Shown here piece after piece: positions 38,066 through 48,373 of a stretch of 64,000 nucleotides of DNA; the first letter of the stretch is position 1, and each line of letters starts with the position of its first letter. The notes under the pieces are model-generated. The model was not told the DNA's origin, did not search any database, and saw only the letters and a list, made by a program, of their open reading frames with translations. Source of the stretch: Erysipelotrichaceae bacterium (lineage in GTDB: Bacteria; Bacillota_I; Bacilli_A; Erysipelotrichales; Erysipelotrichaceae); assembly GCA_030694975.1 (NCBI GenBank), contig JAUYTU010000020.1, positions 62,001 to 126,000 of the forward strand. The letters are read 5' to 3'. The translations under genes were made by a program, and so were the position numbers.

Positions 38066-39889
38066 ATGGCATATAAAGCATTATACAGAACATATCGCCC
38101 AACATCATTTGAAAAAGTGGTTGGTCAGCAACATATCGTTAAGACCCTGCAAAATGCGGTTTTGAAACATAAAATAGCCCATGCTTATCTTTTTTGCGGT
38201 CCACGCGGAACGGGTAAAACAACGGTTGCGAAACTGATGGCTAAAGCAGTCAATTGTCCAGTTACTGACAAAGCTCCATGCAATGTATGTGACAGTTGTT
38301 TATCGATACAAGCTGGAACACATCCGGATATTATTGAAATCGATGCTGCCAGTAATAATGGTGTCGATGAAATAAGAGATTTGATTGAAAAGGTAAAATA
38401 TTCACCAATTGAAGGTAAATACAAAGTATATATCATTGATGAAGTACATATGCTCTCACAAGGAGCTTTTAATGCTCTTCTTAAAACACTGGAAGAACCA
38501 CCTTCTCATGTTATTTTTATCTTAGCAACCACAGAACCTCATAAGGTATTGCCTACAATCATCAGCAGATGTCAACGTTTTGATTTTACCAAGGTACCTC
38601 AAATGGAGATTGGGATTAGGGTCAAAGAGGTTTTAGATACCGAAAAAATCAAATATGAGGAAGGTGTCATTCGTCTGATCAGTCAACTGGCTGAAGGCGG
38701 ATTAAGGGATGCTTTAAGTATTTTGGAACAGTGCATTGCGTATGCACAAAATGATCTGAGAGTTCAACATGTTCATGATATTTACGGGATTACGACTGTA
38801 AGTGAGAAAATTGATTTGCTGGATGCGGTTTTTTCAAAAAATGTCGTAGCAATCCTGGATAATGTCCGATTTATCAGTGAAAAGAGTTTCGATATCAAAC
38901 GTTTGACCTCAGATATGATTGATTTATTAAAGGAGTGTATCATATTTCAATACACACGCGATGAATCATTGCTTCAAATAGCGACTGTGGATGAAGTGAA
39001 ACATATTCTTGCCAAAAGGAATGCAAATGATTTATTAAAGATGATTGATATCTTTATTGAAACTATGGACAAATATCGCAATGCCACTAATATTCACTCA
39101 TATTTTGAGGTTGCTTTGCTCAAAATGATGGCTATGGGTGATCAAGCAATTCCAGTAGTGAATAAGACTGAGAAACCAATGCCATTAAAACCGACACTGG
39201 TTACAAAACAAGTCAAGGAAGAAGTAGTTCCTGTTAAGCAACCGATCATTGAAAATACAGAGTCTTCAGAACATCTCTTCGATGTTGATGCAGAAGATGA
39301 AGAAATAGTAGAAGAGCCTGTTGTGTTAGAATCACCCGAGGACCAACGTCTATTGCAATTGGATATAGAAGTTGAAAATACTGAAACTGAGGACAATGAA
39401 GAGTTATTGTTGAGCGATTTTGATATCGTCCGCTTTATGGTTGCTGGCGATAAAGTCAGACGGACAAATGAAGCAACGCTTTGGAGTCGGGTTGACGATT
39501 ATATCAATGAAATTGAGTGGGCGAAAGTAGCTCGAATGATATCCGATGGATATATAGTCGTAACTAATGAACAATTTGTCGTATTATCTGTGCCCTACGA
39601 AGAGATTGCCAGAGAAATTAACGCAAAAGCCAATGAAATCGCCTTGCGAAGACTTATGGTTGAAATTGTGAAACAACCACGCAAGGTATTTGCGATTACC
39701 AAAGATCAGGAAGATCGTTCAATTACCATGTTTAAAGAATTAAGGAATGTTGGAAGATTGCCTGAACCAATGATTATCCACACAGAACCATTGCCTAAAA
39801 TAAGCAAACTGGAAGAAGAGGTCACTGTTGACCAACGGCTCGTGAGTTTATTTGGGGAAGGGAATGTGGATTTCATTCATGAGGAATAG
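38066..39889 (+). CDS. dnaX: DNA polymerase III subunits gamma and tau
   Basis: 607 residues. AAA+ clamp-loader ATPase: Walker A FCGPRGTGKTTVAK near residue 45, zinc module CPVTDKAPCNVCDSC, DEVHMLS box, sensor SRCQRF. An acidic linker (about 400-450) leads to a tau-specific tail that would contact DnaB and the polymerase. I saw no obvious slippery heptamer to make gamma. Starts the dnaX-recR-fhs cluster; recR follows after 2 bp. Confidence 0.96.
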   Translation: MAYKALYRTYRPTSFEKVVGQQHIVKTLQNAVLKHKIAHAYLFCGPRGTGKTTVAKLMAKAVNCPVTDKAPCNVCDSCLSIQAGTHPDIIEIDAASNNGVDEIRDLIEKVKYSPIEGKYKVYIIDEVHMLSQGAFNALLKTLEEPPSHVIFILATTEPHKVLPTIISRCQRFDFTKVPQMEIGIRVKEVLDTEKIKYEEGVIRLISQLAEGGLRDALSILEQCIAYAQNDLRVQHVHDIYGITTVSEKIDLLDAVFSKNVVAILDNVRFISEKSFDIKRLTSDMIDLLKECIIFQYTRDESLLQIATVDEVKHILAKRNANDLLKMIDIFIETMDKYRNATNIHSYFEVALLKMMAMGDQAIPVVNKTEKPMPLKPTLVTKQVKEEVVPVKQPIIENTESSEHLFDVDAEDEEIVEEPVVLESPEDQRLLQLDIEVENTETEDNEELLLSDFDIVRFMVAGDKVRRTNEATLWSRVDDYINEIEWAKVARMISDGYIVVTNEQFVVLSVPYEEIAREINAKANEIALRRLMVEIVKQPRKVFAITKDQEDRSITMFKELRNVGRLPEPMIIHTEPLPKISKLEEEVTVDQRLVSLFGEGNVDFIHEE

Positions 39890-39891
39890 AT

Positions 39892-40482
39892 ATGTATCCT
39901 AAAATATTGTTAAATCTTATTGAAGAGTTGAAGAAACTGCCGGGTGTGGGTTCAAAGACTGCTGAACGCTACGCATTTGAGATTATTAGCCGTGACCATC
40001 AAGATATTGAAGATTTTGCTCATGCGTTGTTAAAAATCAAGGACAGTTTGAAAGCATGCTCGATATGCGGAAATATCACAGAAGATACATTGTGTGATAT
40101 ATGTAAAGATAAGCATCGGGAGCGGTCGGTAATCTGTGTGGTGAGTCATCCAAAAGATATTATTGCTATGGAGAAGATGGGTGAGTTTCATGGGGTTTAC
40201 CATGTACTTAACGGGGTCATATCGACGTTCAAAGGGATTCTTCCTGAGGATATCAATATTGAGACACTGATCAATCGCGTCGATGATCAAATCAGTGAAG
40301 TTATTATTGCGACGAATCCGACAATCGAGGGCGAAACCACCGCTCTGTATATCGCAAAGAAACTTCAATTAAAAGGAGCGAATGTTACTCGTTTGGCATC
40401 TGGATTACCGATGGGCGGTCATTTGGATTATGCCGATGAGATGACGTTAATAAAAGCTATGGAAGGCCGAAAGAAAATTTAG
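39892..40482 (+). CDS. recR: Recombination protein RecR
   Basis: 196 residues. Helix-hairpin-helix LKKLPGVGSKTAERYAFEI near the start, four-Cys zinc finger CSICGNITEDTLCDIC, TOPRIM domain with VVSHPKDIIAMEKMG, and ASGLPMGGHLDYADEMTL at the end. Works with RecF and RecO in loading RecA. The small YbaB/EbfC gene usually between dnaX and recR is absent. Confidence 0.97.
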   Translation: MYPKILLNLIEELKKLPGVGSKTAERYAFEIISRDHQDIEDFAHALLKIKDSLKACSICGNITEDTLCDICKDKHRERSVICVVSHPKDIIAMEKMGEFHGVYHVLNGVISTFKGILPEDINIETLINRVDDQISEVIIATNPTIEGETTALYIAKKLQLKGANVTRLASGLPMGGHLDYADEMTLIKAMEGRKKI

Positions 40483-40490
40483 GAGGAGCC

Positions 40491-42155
40491 ATGAAAACAG
40501 ACATTCAAATAGCCCAGGAAAACGTAATGGAACCAATCGAGCGGATTGCCCGCAAAGCAAAGATTGACAATGAGTATTTGGAACATTACGGAAAGTACAA
40601 GGCAAAAATTGATTTAAAGATTATGGAAGGGTTAACCAATCAGAAAGATGGAAAACTGATTTTGGTAACATCCATCAATCCGACCAAAGCAGGTGAAGGC
40701 AAATCAACAACGACCGTCGGTCTGGCCGATGGACTGGCAAGACTCAATAAAATGGTTATCGGTGCCTTGAGAGAACCGTCTTTAGGACCGGTTTTTGGTG
40801 TTAAAGGTGGAGCGACAGGTGGCGGAATGGCCCAAGTAGTTCCTATGGAAGATATCAACCTTCATTTTAATGGAGATATGCATGCGGTAACGACTTCCAA
40901 TAACTTAATCAGTGCAGCCATCGATAATCATATGTATCACGGCAATGCATTGAACATTGACCCCGAGCATATCGTTTGGAAGCGTTGTATGGACATGAAT
41001 GATCGTGCCTTGCGTCAGGTTAAAGTCGCTTTAGGCGAGAAAAACGGAATTGAGCGCAAAGACGGCTTTAATATTACCGTGGCCTCTGAAATTATGGCCA
41101 TATTGTGCCTTTCTTCATCTATTCAAGATTTTCAACAACGAGTTGAACGTTGTGTTGTTGCTTATAATATGGATGGCAAACCAATTACCGTTAAGGACTT
41201 AAGTGTTGGTGGTGCTGTAGCAATGATCATGAAGGAGGCTATCAAGCCGAATCTTGTTCAAACTCTCGAAAAGACGCCAATTCTTATCCACGGGGGTCCC
41301 TTTGCAAATATAGCCCACGGATGTAATTCTATTTTAGCAACCAAAATGGCTTTAAAACTTGCGGACTACGTGGTAACTGAGTCGGGTTTCGGTGTTGATT
41401 TGGGTGCTGAGAAGTTTATGGATATAAAGTGTCAAGTGGCTAAGATCGTCCCAAATGCAATCGTGGTTGTTGCTACGATTCGTGCGTTGAAACTGCATGG
41501 CGGAATGGCTTATGACTCACTTAAAGAGGAAAATATTGAAGCTTTGGCTAATGGTGTTGAAAACTTAGCTAAGCATATTGAAACCATTAAGAAATATCGC
41601 GTTCCATATGTTATCGCAATCAACCGTTTTGTCAATGACACCTCTGCTGAATTGGAATGGCTAATGAATTGGTGTGAAACCCATGGTCATGACGCGGTTA
41701 TCAACGAATCTTGGGGTAAGGGCAGTGCCGGAGCTGAAGATTTAGCAAAAGCAGTTATTTTGGCCAGTGAACAGGAAAGTCTATTTAAGCCATTAGTTAC
41801 AGAGGCAGATAGTGTAGAAGAGAAAATCGATCGAATCTGTAAAGAAGTCTATGGTGCAAATGGTGTTATTTATTCAGAAAAGGCAAAAGAGCAATTAGTT
41901 CGATTGACTGACAACGGTTGGAGTCACTTATCGGTTTGTATGGCTAAAAATCAATACTCGCTGACGGATGATCAAAAGAAATTAGGACGTCCGCGTGATT
42001 TTCAGATTCACATTTCTGAACTTCGCATCAGTGCCGGGGCAGGATTTGTCGTTGCTTTGACTGGCAGTGTTATGACAATGCCTGGACTACCAAAAGTACC
42101 AGCTGCAAACAATATGGGAATTGATGAGAAAGGGAATATCTACGGATTATTCTAG
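40491..42155 (+). CDS. fhs: Formate-tetrahydrofolate ligase
   Basis: 554 residues, family length. P-loop-like SINPTKAGEGKSTTTVGLAD near residue 62, and REPSLGPVFGVKGGATGGG. It joins formate and tetrahydrofolate with ATP to give 10-formyl-THF. FolD at 59864 would interconvert its product with methylene-THF, so both halves of the C1 route are in this window. AGGAGGAGCC precedes ATG 40491. Confidence 0.97.
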   Translation: MKTDIQIAQENVMEPIERIARKAKIDNEYLEHYGKYKAKIDLKIMEGLTNQKDGKLILVTSINPTKAGEGKSTTTVGLADGLARLNKMVIGALREPSLGPVFGVKGGATGGGMAQVVPMEDINLHFNGDMHAVTTSNNLISAAIDNHMYHGNALNIDPEHIVWKRCMDMNDRALRQVKVALGEKNGIERKDGFNITVASEIMAILCLSSSIQDFQQRVERCVVAYNMDGKPITVKDLSVGGAVAMIMKEAIKPNLVQTLEKTPILIHGGPFANIAHGCNSILATKMALKLADYVVTESGFGVDLGAEKFMDIKCQVAKIVPNAIVVVATIRALKLHGGMAYDSLKEENIEALANGVENLAKHIETIKKYRVPYVIAINRFVNDTSAELEWLMNWCETHGHDAVINESWGKGSAGAEDLAKAVILASEQESLFKPLVTEADSVEEKIDRICKEVYGANGVIYSEKAKEQLVRLTDNGWSHLSVCMAKNQYSLTDDQKKLGRPRDFQIHISELRISAGAGFVVALTGSVMTMPGLPKVPAANNMGIDEKGNIYGLF

Positions 42156-42165
42156 CAGGTAGAGT

Positions 42166-43083
42166 ATGGCTTCGATTGCTTATGTGACCGACAGAAAAAT
42201 GATTGAGTTTCATCGTGCTTATGGTAATCAAATGATGAATTTTTGGCGTCCAAGCAGCATGAAGCAATTCTCTCAGTTTAATCCCGGTGATTACTTGTTC
42301 TTCCTTGCCAAGGGAACTGAACGTTTTAATGGAAAAGAAAAAGGAATCGTCGGTTATGGTAAGTACAACAGTGCCCACACCATGTCATTACGTCAAATGT
42401 GGAATCAGTATGGCACTTACAATGGTTACAGTTCGAAAGATGAATTGGCAGAAGCAATTTCAAGGGTTAATAAGAATCACGAAGTAGGTAAAAGCATACA
42501 TTGTTTACTATTGAAAGATGTGGTTTTTTTCCAAGCACCGGTATATCCGAGCGAAATTGGCATTCAAATTCCGTCAAATTTAGAAAGTTATACGTATCTT
42601 GATAAGTTTGGGGTTGATTCGACGGTCAAAATCTTGCAAAAAGCGCAAGAAACCGGAATTGATGCTTGGCAGTCTGCCATGGATCACACGATTAACAAAG
42701 ATATCTTTAAAGACGATGTCGTCAGTCATATTTTAGCTAAACAAGTTTCGCAAGTGATTGATCCGACGAAACCGGCATCAAAGATTTTAAAGCGTTATAT
42801 GCTAAGCCAAACTGATTCTATTGAATATATCAAAGGAAGCAAACAGGCATTATTGAAACAATTACCGCTCACCGTCTATTTACCTTTGGAAGCAAGTCAT
42901 AAGAGCAAAGAACAAGTCCTCTTTGAATTAATAGGGAAAATCAGCGTGTTGAAGGACAGTTTAAAAAATGAGCCAGAATTTGAAAATTCTGAAGTTATTT
43001 ATTGTATTATTAGCGAAATTAAACTATCATCTGAATGGTTGGATAAAATCCAACGGATGTACATTCAAGTAATCGAGGGATAA
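42166..43083 (+). CDS. Unknown protein with possible PUA/EVE-like N-terminal domain
   Basis: 305 residues, soluble. Residues about 20-140 have the feel of a PUA/EVE/ASCH-type beta barrel: FNPGDYLFFLAKG, then GIVGYGKYNSAH, then IHCLLLKDVVFFQAPVYPSEIG. Such domains bind modified bases in RNA or DNA. The second half is helical, without recognisable motif. It begins 10 bp after fhs and ends 2 bp before the aldo/keto reductase gene, so it belongs to the dnaX-recR-fhs transcript. The assignment is pattern-based and uncertain. Confidence 0.6.
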   Translation: MASIAYVTDRKMIEFHRAYGNQMMNFWRPSSMKQFSQFNPGDYLFFLAKGTERFNGKEKGIVGYGKYNSAHTMSLRQMWNQYGTYNGYSSKDELAEAISRVNKNHEVGKSIHCLLLKDVVFFQAPVYPSEIGIQIPSNLESYTYLDKFGVDSTVKILQKAQETGIDAWQSAMDHTINKDIFKDDVVSHILAKQVSQVIDPTKPASKILKRYMLSQTDSIEYIKGSKQALLKQLPLTVYLPLEASHKSKEQVLFELIGKISVLKDSLKNEPEFENSEVIYCIISEIKLSSEWLDKIQRMYIQVIEG

Positions 43084-43085
43084 AA

Positions 43086-44075
43086 ATGCAAGTATCGAGT
43101 GATCGTTATTCGAAAATCACCTATAACCGAGCAGGAAAAAGCGGTATACAGTTACCGCTAATTTCTTTGGGCTGTTGGCACAATTTCGGAACGAACGAGT
43201 CTTTTAAGAATATGCGTGAAATGGTATCATTCAGTTTCAATCATGGGATTGTACACTTTGATTTAGCAAACAATTATGGACCACCAGCAGGAGCTGCGGA
43301 GATAAATTTCGGTAAGATTATGCAAATGGATCTTAAATCATATCGAGATGAGCTTCTGATTTCGACAAAAGCTGGCTATGGAATGTGGCCAGGTCCCTTT
43401 GGGGATTGGGGAAGCAAAAAATACCTTATCGCAAGCTGTGATCAAAGCTTAATTCGGCTGGGTCTGTCATATGTGGATATTTTCTATCACCATCGTTATG
43501 ATCCGCAGACATCTTTGGAAGAAACGACCAGCGCACTGGCTCAGCTTGTTCACCAAGGGAAGGCACTATACGTGGGTTTGTCAAATTACCCTAAAGAGCC
43601 TCTTAAGCAAGCTGTCAAATTACTTCGCGAGCAAAATGTTCCGATCGTTTTAGGTCAATACCCTTACAATATGATGGATACTCGCTTTGAGACAGATGGA
43701 GTGAAAGGTGCATTGGAAGAGTTGGGAGTAGGTTCGATCGTTTTCAGTCCATTGGCACAAGGATTATTGACTGATCGATATTTCAATGGAATACCTGAGG
43801 ATTCACGCATTAAAAAAGGCACGGGATTTTTGAAGGAAGAAAGACTGACCCCCAAACTTAAAGAACAATTGTTTCAACTGAATAAAGTCGCTGAAAAGCG
43901 AGGTCAAAACTTAGCACAAATGGCTGTTGCCTGGTTGGTTAGTAAGGATGTAACTTCCGTGCTAATCGGTGCAAGCAAAGTAGAACAAATTGAAGATAAT
44001 CTTGATGCTCTAAATCATACTCAATTCACAAAAGAAGAGCTCCGAATTATCAGTGACATCCTAAAAAATGACTAA
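43086..44075 (+). CDS. Aldo/keto reductase, YghZ-like
   Basis: 329 residues. Catalytic tetrad visible: Asp and Tyr in HFDLANNYGPPAGAAE, Lys in LISTKAGYGMWPG, His in IFYHHRYDP. The segment PFGDWGSKKYLIASCDQSL is typical of the L-glyceraldehyde-3-phosphate reductase group. NADPH-dependent reduction of small aldehydes such as methylglyoxal is likely. Last gene of its transcript before the terminator. Confidence 0.92.
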   Translation: MQVSSDRYSKITYNRAGKSGIQLPLISLGCWHNFGTNESFKNMREMVSFSFNHGIVHFDLANNYGPPAGAAEINFGKIMQMDLKSYRDELLISTKAGYGMWPGPFGDWGSKKYLIASCDQSLIRLGLSYVDIFYHHRYDPQTSLEETTSALAQLVHQGKALYVGLSNYPKEPLKQAVKLLREQNVPIVLGQYPYNMMDTRFETDGVKGALEELGVGSIVFSPLAQGLLTDRYFNGIPEDSRIKKGTGFLKEERLTPKLKEQLFQLNKVAEKRGQNLAQMAVAWLVSKDVTSVLIGASKVEQIEDNLDALNHTQFTKEELRIISDILKND

Positions 44076-44096
44076 AGATCGTTATTCACGATCTTT
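44074..44096. terminator. Bidirectional terminator between aldo/keto reductase and CYTH genes
   Basis: 9-bp perfect stem AAAGATCGT / ACGATCTTT with a 5-base loop and T-run; both convergent genes end inside it. Confidence 0.85.
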
Positions 44097-46759: not shown

Positions 46760-48373
46760 ATGCGGAGATGGCATTCTTTATTAGAAATCGTACAATTCCC
46801 ATTAAAAACCCTGTTCGTCTCTACCATTTTCATGGGTTTAGGCGGACTGTTGTTAAATCCAAACTTAGTTACAATCGTTTCGGTTGAGAACCGTTGGATT
46901 TTGACATTTGCAGAATTGTTACGTTATTTTGGTGGCATGATGATCATGCTTTTTCCTTTGTTGTTACTAATCAAGGCCTTATCCAAGCGATATGAAGACT
47001 CAGTGCCTGTATATATTGGTATCGTGGGCTATGTCGCTTTACATATTACCACAATGTTCTTCTCTTTGGGAGAATTACTGCCATCGGCTTATTATCCAGT
47101 ATTAGGAATTTCAGTAAATTTAACTGACATTTTTCTTCCGGGGAGTGGCGTGATTTATCCGATTCAAACGGGCATCTTATCGGCTATATACCTGATTAAT
47201 ATTACCCGATTCTGCTATCATCGCAGTCGTGTTGCTTCTGATCACGGGTTGTTGCCTTTTGTTGATAAAGATACCTGGGCGGCTATTGAAGTAATTTTCT
47301 TTAGCATTTTAGGAGGCATCGGAATCAGTTATTTATGGCCGTTTATTATGCAGATAACCGATTTTATTTTTAAGTTTATTGCCTCGGATATTACTAACCC
47401 CGTAAATCTATTCTTTTATGGTATTACTGAGCGGATTTTAAGTACAATAAGCTTGAGTCGTTTGATTCGGGAGCCGTTTTGGTTCGGGATTTTCGGAGGC
47501 TCCTGGATTGATGGTCTTGGAAATAATTTTGTGGGTGATGTGGCTGTTTGGACAGCACAAAGAGCCAATGGGGTGTATTCACTTGGGTTTGGCCGTCTGA
47601 TCACACCGTATTATGTACTCAATATATTCGCTGTACCAGCCTTCTTGATTGCTGCGTATCAGACATATACAGATAAAATCAATAAAAGAAGATACTTTTC
47701 GTTTTTACTCTTCGCGATTTTCTTATCCATACTATTTGGTACGTTATTGCCGGTAGAGATTTATATGCTGGTGGCTACACCCCTGTTATATGTAATCCAC
47801 CTTTTCACAACGGGTCTGCTATTTGCGACTTTTGAAGCGTTCAGCGTCTCGGTTGGTTATACTTACTCGGGTCTTGAGTTAGTTGCAACACCCGCCAGTC
47901 TGATCGATTTGGCTATATTTTGGCGAAATCCGGGTATGCAGCGTAGTTTGACTGTTATATTGATAGTCGGCATCTTAATGTTTGTATTCTATTATTTTAT
48001 CACCCGAACCTATTATCGACGGATTGCTGTGGATGCAATGAATATCGGGGTAAAAGCCGAGAAAGTACAGACTATCATACAAGCGTTTGGCGGTTTAGAT
48101 AATATTCGAATGGCACACTCTACACCCAACCGATTAACCATTTTGCCTTATGACAAAACGTTGGTCGACTTTAAGCGAGTCCATTTGGTCGGCCTTCATA
48201 AAATCGTTGAAACACGGGCAGGATATTCTATGGCGTTTGGCGCTTGTTCATTTATGCTTCGGAGTGATTTGGTGAAAATGATGCGAGATCAGCAACGGCA
48301 GTTACTCGATAATACGCAGGCTTTTGAAACCATTACCGATGAAATGTTGGCAAAAGCTGATCAAAAACCATGA
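46760..48373 (+). CDS. PTS glucose-family EIIC permease with degenerate EIIB domain
   Basis: 537 residues. N-terminal EIIC with about ten helices; REPFWFGIFGGSWIDGLGN aligns with the substrate-loop region of glucose/maltose EIIC. The last about 100 residues match an EIIB fold (IIQAFGGLDNIRMAHSTPNR), but the usual ACITRLR has become AHSTPNRLT near residue 451, so the phosphorylated Cys is missing. It may use an EIIB from another protein, act as sensor or facilitator, or be decaying. No EIIA is nearby. CGAGGTGAGTGT precedes ATG 46760. Confidence 0.8.
   Translation: MRRWHSLLEIVQFPLKTLFVSTIFMGLGGLLLNPNLVTIVSVENRWILTFAELLRYFGGMMIMLFPLLLLIKALSKRYEDSVPVYIGIVGYVALHITTMFFSLGELLPSAYYPVLGISVNLTDIFLPGSGVIYPIQTGILSAIYLINITRFCYHRSRVASDHGLLPFVDKDTWAAIEVIFFSILGGIGISYLWPFIMQITDFIFKFIASDITNPVNLFFYGITERILSTISLSRLIREPFWFGIFGGSWIDGLGNNFVGDVAVWTAQRANGVYSLGFGRLITPYYVLNIFAVPAFLIAAYQTYTDKINKRRYFSFLLFAIFLSILFGTLLPVEIYMLVATPLLYVIHLFTTGLLFATFEAFSVSVGYTYSGLELVATPASLIDLAIFWRNPGMQRSLTVILIVGILMFVFYYFITRTYYRRIAVDAMNIGVKAEKVQTIIQAFGGLDNIRMAHSTPNRLTILPYDKTLVDFKRVHLVGLHKIVETRAGYSMAFGACSFMLRSDLVKMMRDQQRQLLDNTQAFETITDEMLAKADQKP

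Follow-up and report, generated by a model that had tools for sequence, protein, structure and literature searches.

What is the function of the unannotated gene that lies between fhs and an aldo/keto reductase gene, downstream of dnaX and recR, in an Erysipelotrichaceae genome? The window, by which we mean the whole stretch of DNA analysed here, comprises 64,000 nucleotides, and the gene encodes a protein of 305 amino acids. The first-pass annotation had described the product as PUA/EVE-like, possibly a base-modification reader or a restriction-like factor without a partner nuclease. The ORF coordinates agree with the place it gave for the gene, which starts 10 bp after the end of fhs (42155) and is followed by the reductase gene after 2 bp. 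The sequence pattern that it quoted is likewise present, with PGDYLFFLAKG at residues 40-50 and GIVGYGK at residues 60-66. The locus has the following features, where counts refer to the 37 other loci defined below.

38066..39889, + strand: dnaX, upstream of the gene; also seen in 31 of the 37 other loci
39892..40482, + strand: recR, upstream of the gene; also seen in 33 of the 37 other loci
40491..42155, + strand: fhs (formate-tetrahydrofolate ligase), directly upstream; same in 14 of 37 other loci
42166..43083, + strand: unannotated gene, 305 amino acids, ATG to TAA; predicted PUA-like N-terminal half and possibly PD-(D/E)XK-like C-terminal half
42166..42690, + strand: predicted PUA-superfamily domain of the N-terminal half (EVE/ASCH-like, about residues 1-175), from the model, fold searches and conservation
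42706..43080, + strand: C-terminal variable domain, about residues 181-305, from the model, VIA-align and conservation
43086..44075, + strand: aldo/keto reductase (PF00248), 2 bp downstream; similar gene in 2 of 37 other loci
44074..44096, no strand: two-way terminator-like hairpin of 9 pairs, on which the reductase and CYTH genes converge

The existence of homologues of similar length in other genera indicates that the ORF is more than a chance reading frame. The hairpin at 44074..44096 is a possible end of the transcript; judged by consensus match only, such hairpins occur at 12 sites in the region against 4.8 expected, and the consensus scan found none on the + strand between fhs and the gene. 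Further along, ahead of mutS, the window carries a 537-aa membrane-type ORF (46760-48373) that has a relative in 15/37 loci. Pfam is blank for it at E 0.01, and its end resembles a PTS IIB remnant by eye.

Searched as a single sequence, the 305-aa protein matched no Pfam family and none of the PADLOC defence profiles at E values up to 10, and gave chance-level rows only in NCBIfam, PHROGs and PDB. The weak rows, to YciT (E 0.066), two PHROGs (E 0.025 and 0.055) and PDB entries (E 0.21 and 0.46), were dismissed as chance, as was the single row returned by the family profile against PDB (E 0.66). Pfam searches with 24 family members returned 17 scattered weak families, none of them PUA-like and neither EVE nor ASCH among them. 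The EVE domain (PF01878) had no match in the 305-aa protein at E up to 10 and none in its own genome; the ASCH domain (PF04266) had none in the protein, the 24 members or that genome. The HNH Pfam profile was absent from the protein and from the families listed for the 24 members. YTH, PUA and SRA profiles were covered via the Pfam scans only. The comparison with EVE, ASCH, YTH and PUA families that the first-pass annotation had proposed thus yielded no Pfam match.

Structure prediction points to a PUA-like barrel in the N-terminal half. A full-length prediction from six rows modelled this half poorly, so the domain was predicted alone; the model of residues 1-176, built from 10 sequences, reached a moderate pLDDT of 63 and a pTM of 0.61. 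With these residues as query, the first 12 Foldseek rows comprise five proteins at E 4.5e-05 to 6.5e-02, namely 2kku, ZmASCH (eight rows), PF0455, THYN1 and the N-terminus of S. marinus McrB, with one row below E 0.001 (4.5e-05). In VIA-align, two proteins only, 2kku (Z 8.6) and ZmASCH (8.2), reach a Z of at least 8; they are followed by PH0355 (7.0), S. marinus SmMcrB (6.3), YqfB (6.2), 2eve (5.8) and THYN1 with 5mC DNA (4.8). We take 2kku, PF0455 and PH0355 to be ASCH-type. Profile comparison by hhalign against four EVE proteins gave, in the best of three runs, a probability of 44 (P 2.3e-4, 38 columns) and in the two others 19 and 2.4, against at most 2.3 for two ASCH sets. The fold matches favour ASCH and hhalign weakly prefers EVE, so that the two do not single out one family. 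The N-terminal half is nevertheless very likely a PUA-like barrel: the model, at its moderate confidence, and both fold searches agree with what had been read from the sequence pattern, and the predicted fold is not one unrelated to PUA barrels.

Conservation was assessed in 62 distinct ORFs of at least 270 aa, out of 115 found (many of them the same gene found twice). Conserved residues of the N-terminal domain include W27, W79, Y144, H16-R17 and E58-K59-G60, and four polar residues are near-invariant, H16 (62/62), K59 (61/62), E140 (60/62) and S141 (61/62). According to an excerpt of PMC7897488, W26 and Y82 are emphasised as pocket residues in 2eve, and the base bound by VcaM4I stacks on W82 and Y130. 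The similar numbering suggests, by analogy, W27 and W79 as candidate pocket residues.

The closest sequence relatives reveal a further connection. Searches with the profile built from 24 family members bring up two HNH proteins, G098 (E 2.5e-14) and G374 (E 3.4e-10). In these proteins, of 314 aa (L071, in G374) and 527 aa (L070), the same N-terminal domain is followed by an HNH nuclease. Aligned by hhalign with four HNH endonucleases, the family scores a probability of 98.2 (E 3.4e-14, 116 columns), and with larger sets 98.7 (E 2.5e-16). In the window's genome, the HNH-family profile has this gene as its sole match (E 5e-16). Of the positions with a conservation of 85% or more across the window family, all 8 HNH rows keep D9, F26, W27, G41, F46, G63, W79, G87 and L116, 7/8 keep Y144 and 6/8 keep F122, while H16, E58-K59-G60, P125, E140 and S141 are conserved in the window family only. 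The N-terminal half and the HNH-family domain almost certainly share ancestry.

Homologous N-terminal domains occur in HNH endonucleases of Mesorhizobium amorphae (WP_006205527.1) and Deinococcus psychrotolerans (WP_124875929.1) and in L071 and L106-L109. The window protein differs from these enzymes in having no HNH and another C-terminal half. The setting differs too: the window family occupies a chromosomal operon, whereas the HNH relatives are seen on plasmids or viral contigs. Scans of viral contigs with the HNH alignments found L106-L109 and a decayed copy, L113, which was excluded from the alignments; the same scans with P0002 and P0003 found none, and with P0004 only itself. The HNH part of L071 resembles a phosphorothioate-DNA restriction family below the cut-off (82.7 vs 180 bits) and also matches VcaM4I; the term 6yex occurs in an excerpt of the VcaM4I paper (PMC7897488).

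A restriction gene is found in one of the four annotated plasmid regions around HNH relatives (H2, type ISP). It is absent from the H1 plasmid, H3 carries integrases and a transposase, and H4 has a HipA gene and the homologue in two pieces. In the type ISP case, on a Mesorhizobium plasmid (L103:465-4915), the restriction-modification gene is immediately followed by the HNH endonuclease with this domain. A viral-contig protein of 451 aa (L109:2584-3939) has, in this order, an additional N-terminal stretch judged PUA/EVE-like by eye, the studied domain and HNH_2, and the next gene on that contig encodes an NgoFVII-type enzyme. L106 is flanked by an N6/N4 methylase gene and a ParB-like ORF; by eye, L113 is flanked by a recombinase-like ORF and L070 by conjugation-type ORFs. 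Downstream of the HNH relative in G374, the stretch L071:4731-5474 encodes an MrfA zinc-binding domain (PF09369, E 5.9e-09).

The C-terminal half is harder to place. In the full-length model, ten-residue pLDDT means over residues 201-305 range from 47 to 82. VIA-align of residues 193-305 ranks XisH (Z 6.7), Cdn1 (6.2) and Card1 (6.0) at the top, all under Z 8, with Bse634I (4.6), Avs3 (4.3) and LlaBIII and LmuA (both 4.0) in lower rows. All of these have the PD-(D/E)XK fold, but the unrelated folds CpaE (5.1) and CheY3 (4.6) score above or level with Bse634I. The best Foldseek row (E 0.033) is an unrelated protein and not significant. A C-terminal profile, from an alignment of 47 of the 62 sequences, had prefoldin alone as a PDB match (E 0.69), which was dropped. 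The motif [E/D]-x-K occurs at columns 238-242 in 0/62 sequences, a position that depends on the uncertain fold assignment; L065 has a D-x-K a few residues beyond these columns. At the expected E-x-K strand, P240 is found in 47/62, and G257 is kept in 58/62. Residue 228 is acidic in 38/62 and Ala in the window protein. Our best guess from the model is a catalytically dead nuclease-like fold. Nuclease catalysis is somewhat more plausibly lost than retained, and this half is probably a scaffold for DNA binding or dimerisation. There is no HNH here, but the description as lacking a partner nuclease may overlook that the protein's own C-terminal half weakly resembles a degenerate nuclease fold.

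How widespread is the family, and does it travel with mobile elements? A scan of genome contigs found five relatives; the records of four are titled Erysipelotrichaceae and that of the fifth Firmicutes. Within the window's GTDB family, 135/195 genomes have profile matches, as do 94/124 of the better ones; the HNH fusion G098 contributes one to each count, and removing it leaves 134/195 genomes that carry the family proper. Each of the 134 has one copy, except the fragmented G191 with two partial pieces on separate contigs, and the copies in G112, G167 and G190 are marked with in-frame stops. At class level, 15/198 genomes matched, 14 from the same GTDB family and one other, an HNH fusion, and at phylum level 31/392, all from the same GTDB family. 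Phage records held no family match, and a pattern scan of viral contigs found no member of the recR-linked family. The plasmid search gave three weak matches, the best (E 4e-5) being an annotated HNH endonuclease.

Gene order was compared in 37 loci: L005 and 36 loci from 34 genera, of which g19 and g46 contribute two each. This count does not include L001-L004, which belong to the window genus, or L028, whose genome also holds L082; L150 of the window genus was kept. The gene lies directly 3' of recR in 11/37 loci and directly 3' of recR-fhs in another 11. One gene separates it from recR in 5/37, and two to ten genes do so in 5/37. In one locus the gene adjoins fhs and recR lies further upstream, in two a contig edge hides the rest, and in two no recR is seen. 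The next gene upstream has the same orientation in 34/37 loci and is at most 24 bp away in 21/37. In 16/37 loci dnaX and recR are separated by an ORF of 98-111 aa; an ORF of this type in a gene-less genome is YbaB (PF02575). The junction in the window (39889-39892) has no ORF of ybaB size.

When 18 genomes of the family without the gene were searched, recR was found in 16, and the gene was missing from those recR regions; the recR region of 4 genomes of another family is likewise without it. The idea that gene-less genomes retain a truncated version at this site was rejected, as the ORFs seen there look unrelated. A different conserved protein of 181-243 aa is encoded downstream of recR in 7 of the 16 gene-less family genomes with recR. 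By eye its start is HTH-like and its tail coiled-coil-like, with FFYRL-T/L-HK at or close to the end, and one example is without a Pfam match at E 0.01. Its loci are:

L121:9915-10490
L122:7559-8113
L125:9963-10529
L126:7235-7834
L127:3248-3793
L129:7214-7894
L130:5250-5981

The gene is vertically inherited, and its N-terminal half is under purifying selection. Pairwise identities were compared across 30 loci, selected because both dnaX and recR are seen there. The N-terminal half correlates with RecR at a Spearman coefficient of 0.64 and with DnaX at 0.70 (Mantel p 0.001), and RecR and DnaX identities themselves correlate at 0.75. For the C-terminal half the values are 0.09 with RecR and 0.08 with DnaX, which are rough, as some pairs score near zero. 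Compared with L001-L004 of the window genus, the N-terminal half is 98, 97, 96 and 94% identical, at or above the 98, 95, 96 and 92% of Fhs. The C-terminal half is 85, 72, 75 and 65% identical and lies below DnaX (86, 83 and 81%) in the three pairs that have DnaX. Between genera, the median identity of RecR is 0.556 and that of DnaX 0.433; the N-terminal half stands at 0.465 and the C-terminal half at 0.236. The dN/dS of the N-terminal half is 0.005 (L001), 0.008 (L003) and 0.018 (L004); these are rough values from three same-genus pairs, with dS at 1.45-2.50, and the ratio was not computable for L002.

We favour the reading that the protein is a housekeeping nucleic-acid reader, a relative of modified-base readers within a recombination and repair operon, and give it a probability of roughly 0.37. 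Its PUA-superfamily barrel, kin to the N-terminal domain that would serve as the specificity domain of the HNH endonucleases, would capture a base that is modified or damaged in an aromatic pocket, for which W27, W79 and Y144 are candidates. Recognition of the base may be coupled to RecR-dependent recombination or gap repair. The gene is probably co-transcribed with recR, and the C-terminal half, possibly PD-(D/E)XK-like without the catalytic motif, could act as a scaffold. We lean towards DNA, and not RNA, as the ligand, and regard the functional tie to RecR as tentative. A reader domain that hardly varies inside the genus, a second half that varies much more and a position by recR kept throughout the family would suit recognition of a common chemical feature, either damage or a widespread modification, during DNA work near RecR. 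It is conceivable, if rather unlikely, that a restriction-type base reader and its dead nuclease partner have become a settled part of the dnaX-recR operon and act as a sensor of lesions or modified bases for RecFOR/RecR. We know of no dedicated sensor of such a kind in that pathway. A resident 5mC mark was considered as the target and ruled against, because C5 methyltransferases show no association with the gene (48/134 genomes with it vs 22/61 without, p 1.0, assuming that both genome lists drew on the same 195 genomes). N6/N4 methyltransferases are found in 154/195 genomes at E 0.001, 100 of them over the cut-off. Against the repair reading, gene order is no proof of joint function and 2/37 loci show no recR nearby. 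The N-terminal half is also less conserved between genera than RecR, which we counted against a housekeeping role in repair.

A defence role would predict patchy, mobile and defence-linked genes, and the family shows the reverse. One alternative is that the protein is a type IV restriction enzyme of the EVE-PD(D/E)XK kind, still active on modified DNA. Such architectures are reported in an excerpt of PMC7641849, the N-terminal domain is common to HNH endonucleases, and restriction enzymes are among the lower C-terminal fold rows. With E-x-K missing from its expected place in every sequence, a fast-drifting C-terminal half, a conserved chromosomal place with a vertical pattern and one copy, and no match in PADLOC, phage records or, by pattern scan, viral contigs, we regard a working enzyme as very improbable. 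The earlier suggestion of a restriction-like factor finds support in the kinship with the N-terminal domain found in HNH endonucleases, but the gene behaves as a vertically inherited part of an operon and not as a stray factor. Alternatively, the barrel may itself be catalytic and act on a base or nucleoside, for example as a glycosylase feeding RecFOR repair. The near-invariant H16, K59, E140 and S141, which are not kept in the HNH relatives, would fit an active site, and BapA, an ASCH-like protein that acts on 5hmC bases according to an excerpt of PMC13160076, offers a precedent for a catalytic barrel. The same four residues may, however, be structural or form a protein interface, and we hold an enzyme of this type to be improbable.

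Two further readings detach the gene from repair. If the protein were an RNA-directed PUA/ASCH protein that binds or processes RNA, its operon place would reflect co-expression with growth genes. The fold matches include YqfB (Z 6.2), an ac4C amidohydrolase. They also include ZmASCH, the best-named match, which is an RNase for single-stranded RNA according to an excerpt of PMC5615036 and would make RNA as possible a ligand as DNA. Broad occurrence and strong conservation would suit an RNA ligand, and tadA (29/37 loci) and serS (24/37) accompany the gene. But tadA also accompanies dnaX-recR where the gene is absent (tadA in 18/20 gene-less regions, dnaX and recR in 20/20), and the closest sequence relatives are HNH endonucleases and not RNA enzymes, which leaves the RNA reading somewhat unlikely. 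The function may instead belong with fhs, in one-carbon or nucleotide supply, or with another pathway. The genes are directly adjacent here and in 14/37 loci, and fhs is present in 20/37 regions with the gene vs 1/20 without it (related genomes, not independent). This difference points to fhs no less than to recR, and because of it we weighed the repair and sensor readings down and this one up. An excerpt of PMC7641849 describes a parallel, in that proteobacterial EVE genes adjoin another folate gene, ygfA. Yet recR and not fhs is the direct neighbour in 11/37 loci, and fhs is not seen in 17/37 regions; a link to fhs in place of recR is distinctly unlikely in our view.

The housekeeping reader proposed here would be composed of parts of known kinds, namely PUA-like readers and the reader-nuclease fusions of type IV restriction described in an excerpt of PMC7641849. 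As far as the excerpted description in PMC7897488 goes, the family is like VcaM4I (EVE-HNH, 6yex) in its PUA-superfamily barrel and reader-plus-nuclease layout; it differs in having neither a sequence match to VcaM4I nor an HNH. Compared by description with the EVE-PD(D/E)XK restriction proteins excerpted in PMC7641849, it is alike in the PUA-like barrel and possibly in a PD-(D/E)XK-like half. It differs from them in being without E-x-K and an EVE Pfam match and in being fixed in the recR operon. The ASCH proteins ZmASCH and YqfB are among the best solved fold matches of the N-terminal half, but the family is without an ASCH profile match and reaches a probability of at most 2.3 in hhalign against two ASCH sets. 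A literature search of limited scope brought up a YbaB review but, among the titles listed, no paper on this protein; in PMC7641849 'DnaX' is absent and the four strings 'recr' are forms of 'recruit'. What is new, as far as these searches go, is an unannotated family that is linked to HNH enzymes and has a conserved position next to recR.

If the favoured reading is true, a base-reading domain of the defence type would have turned into a housekeeping partner of recombination. It would also provide a short list of testable residues and a genetic prediction, namely an interaction with recR. The family supplies a profile that is missing from Pfam, and it ties a gene of most sampled genomes of this bacterial family to barely described HNH endonucleases.
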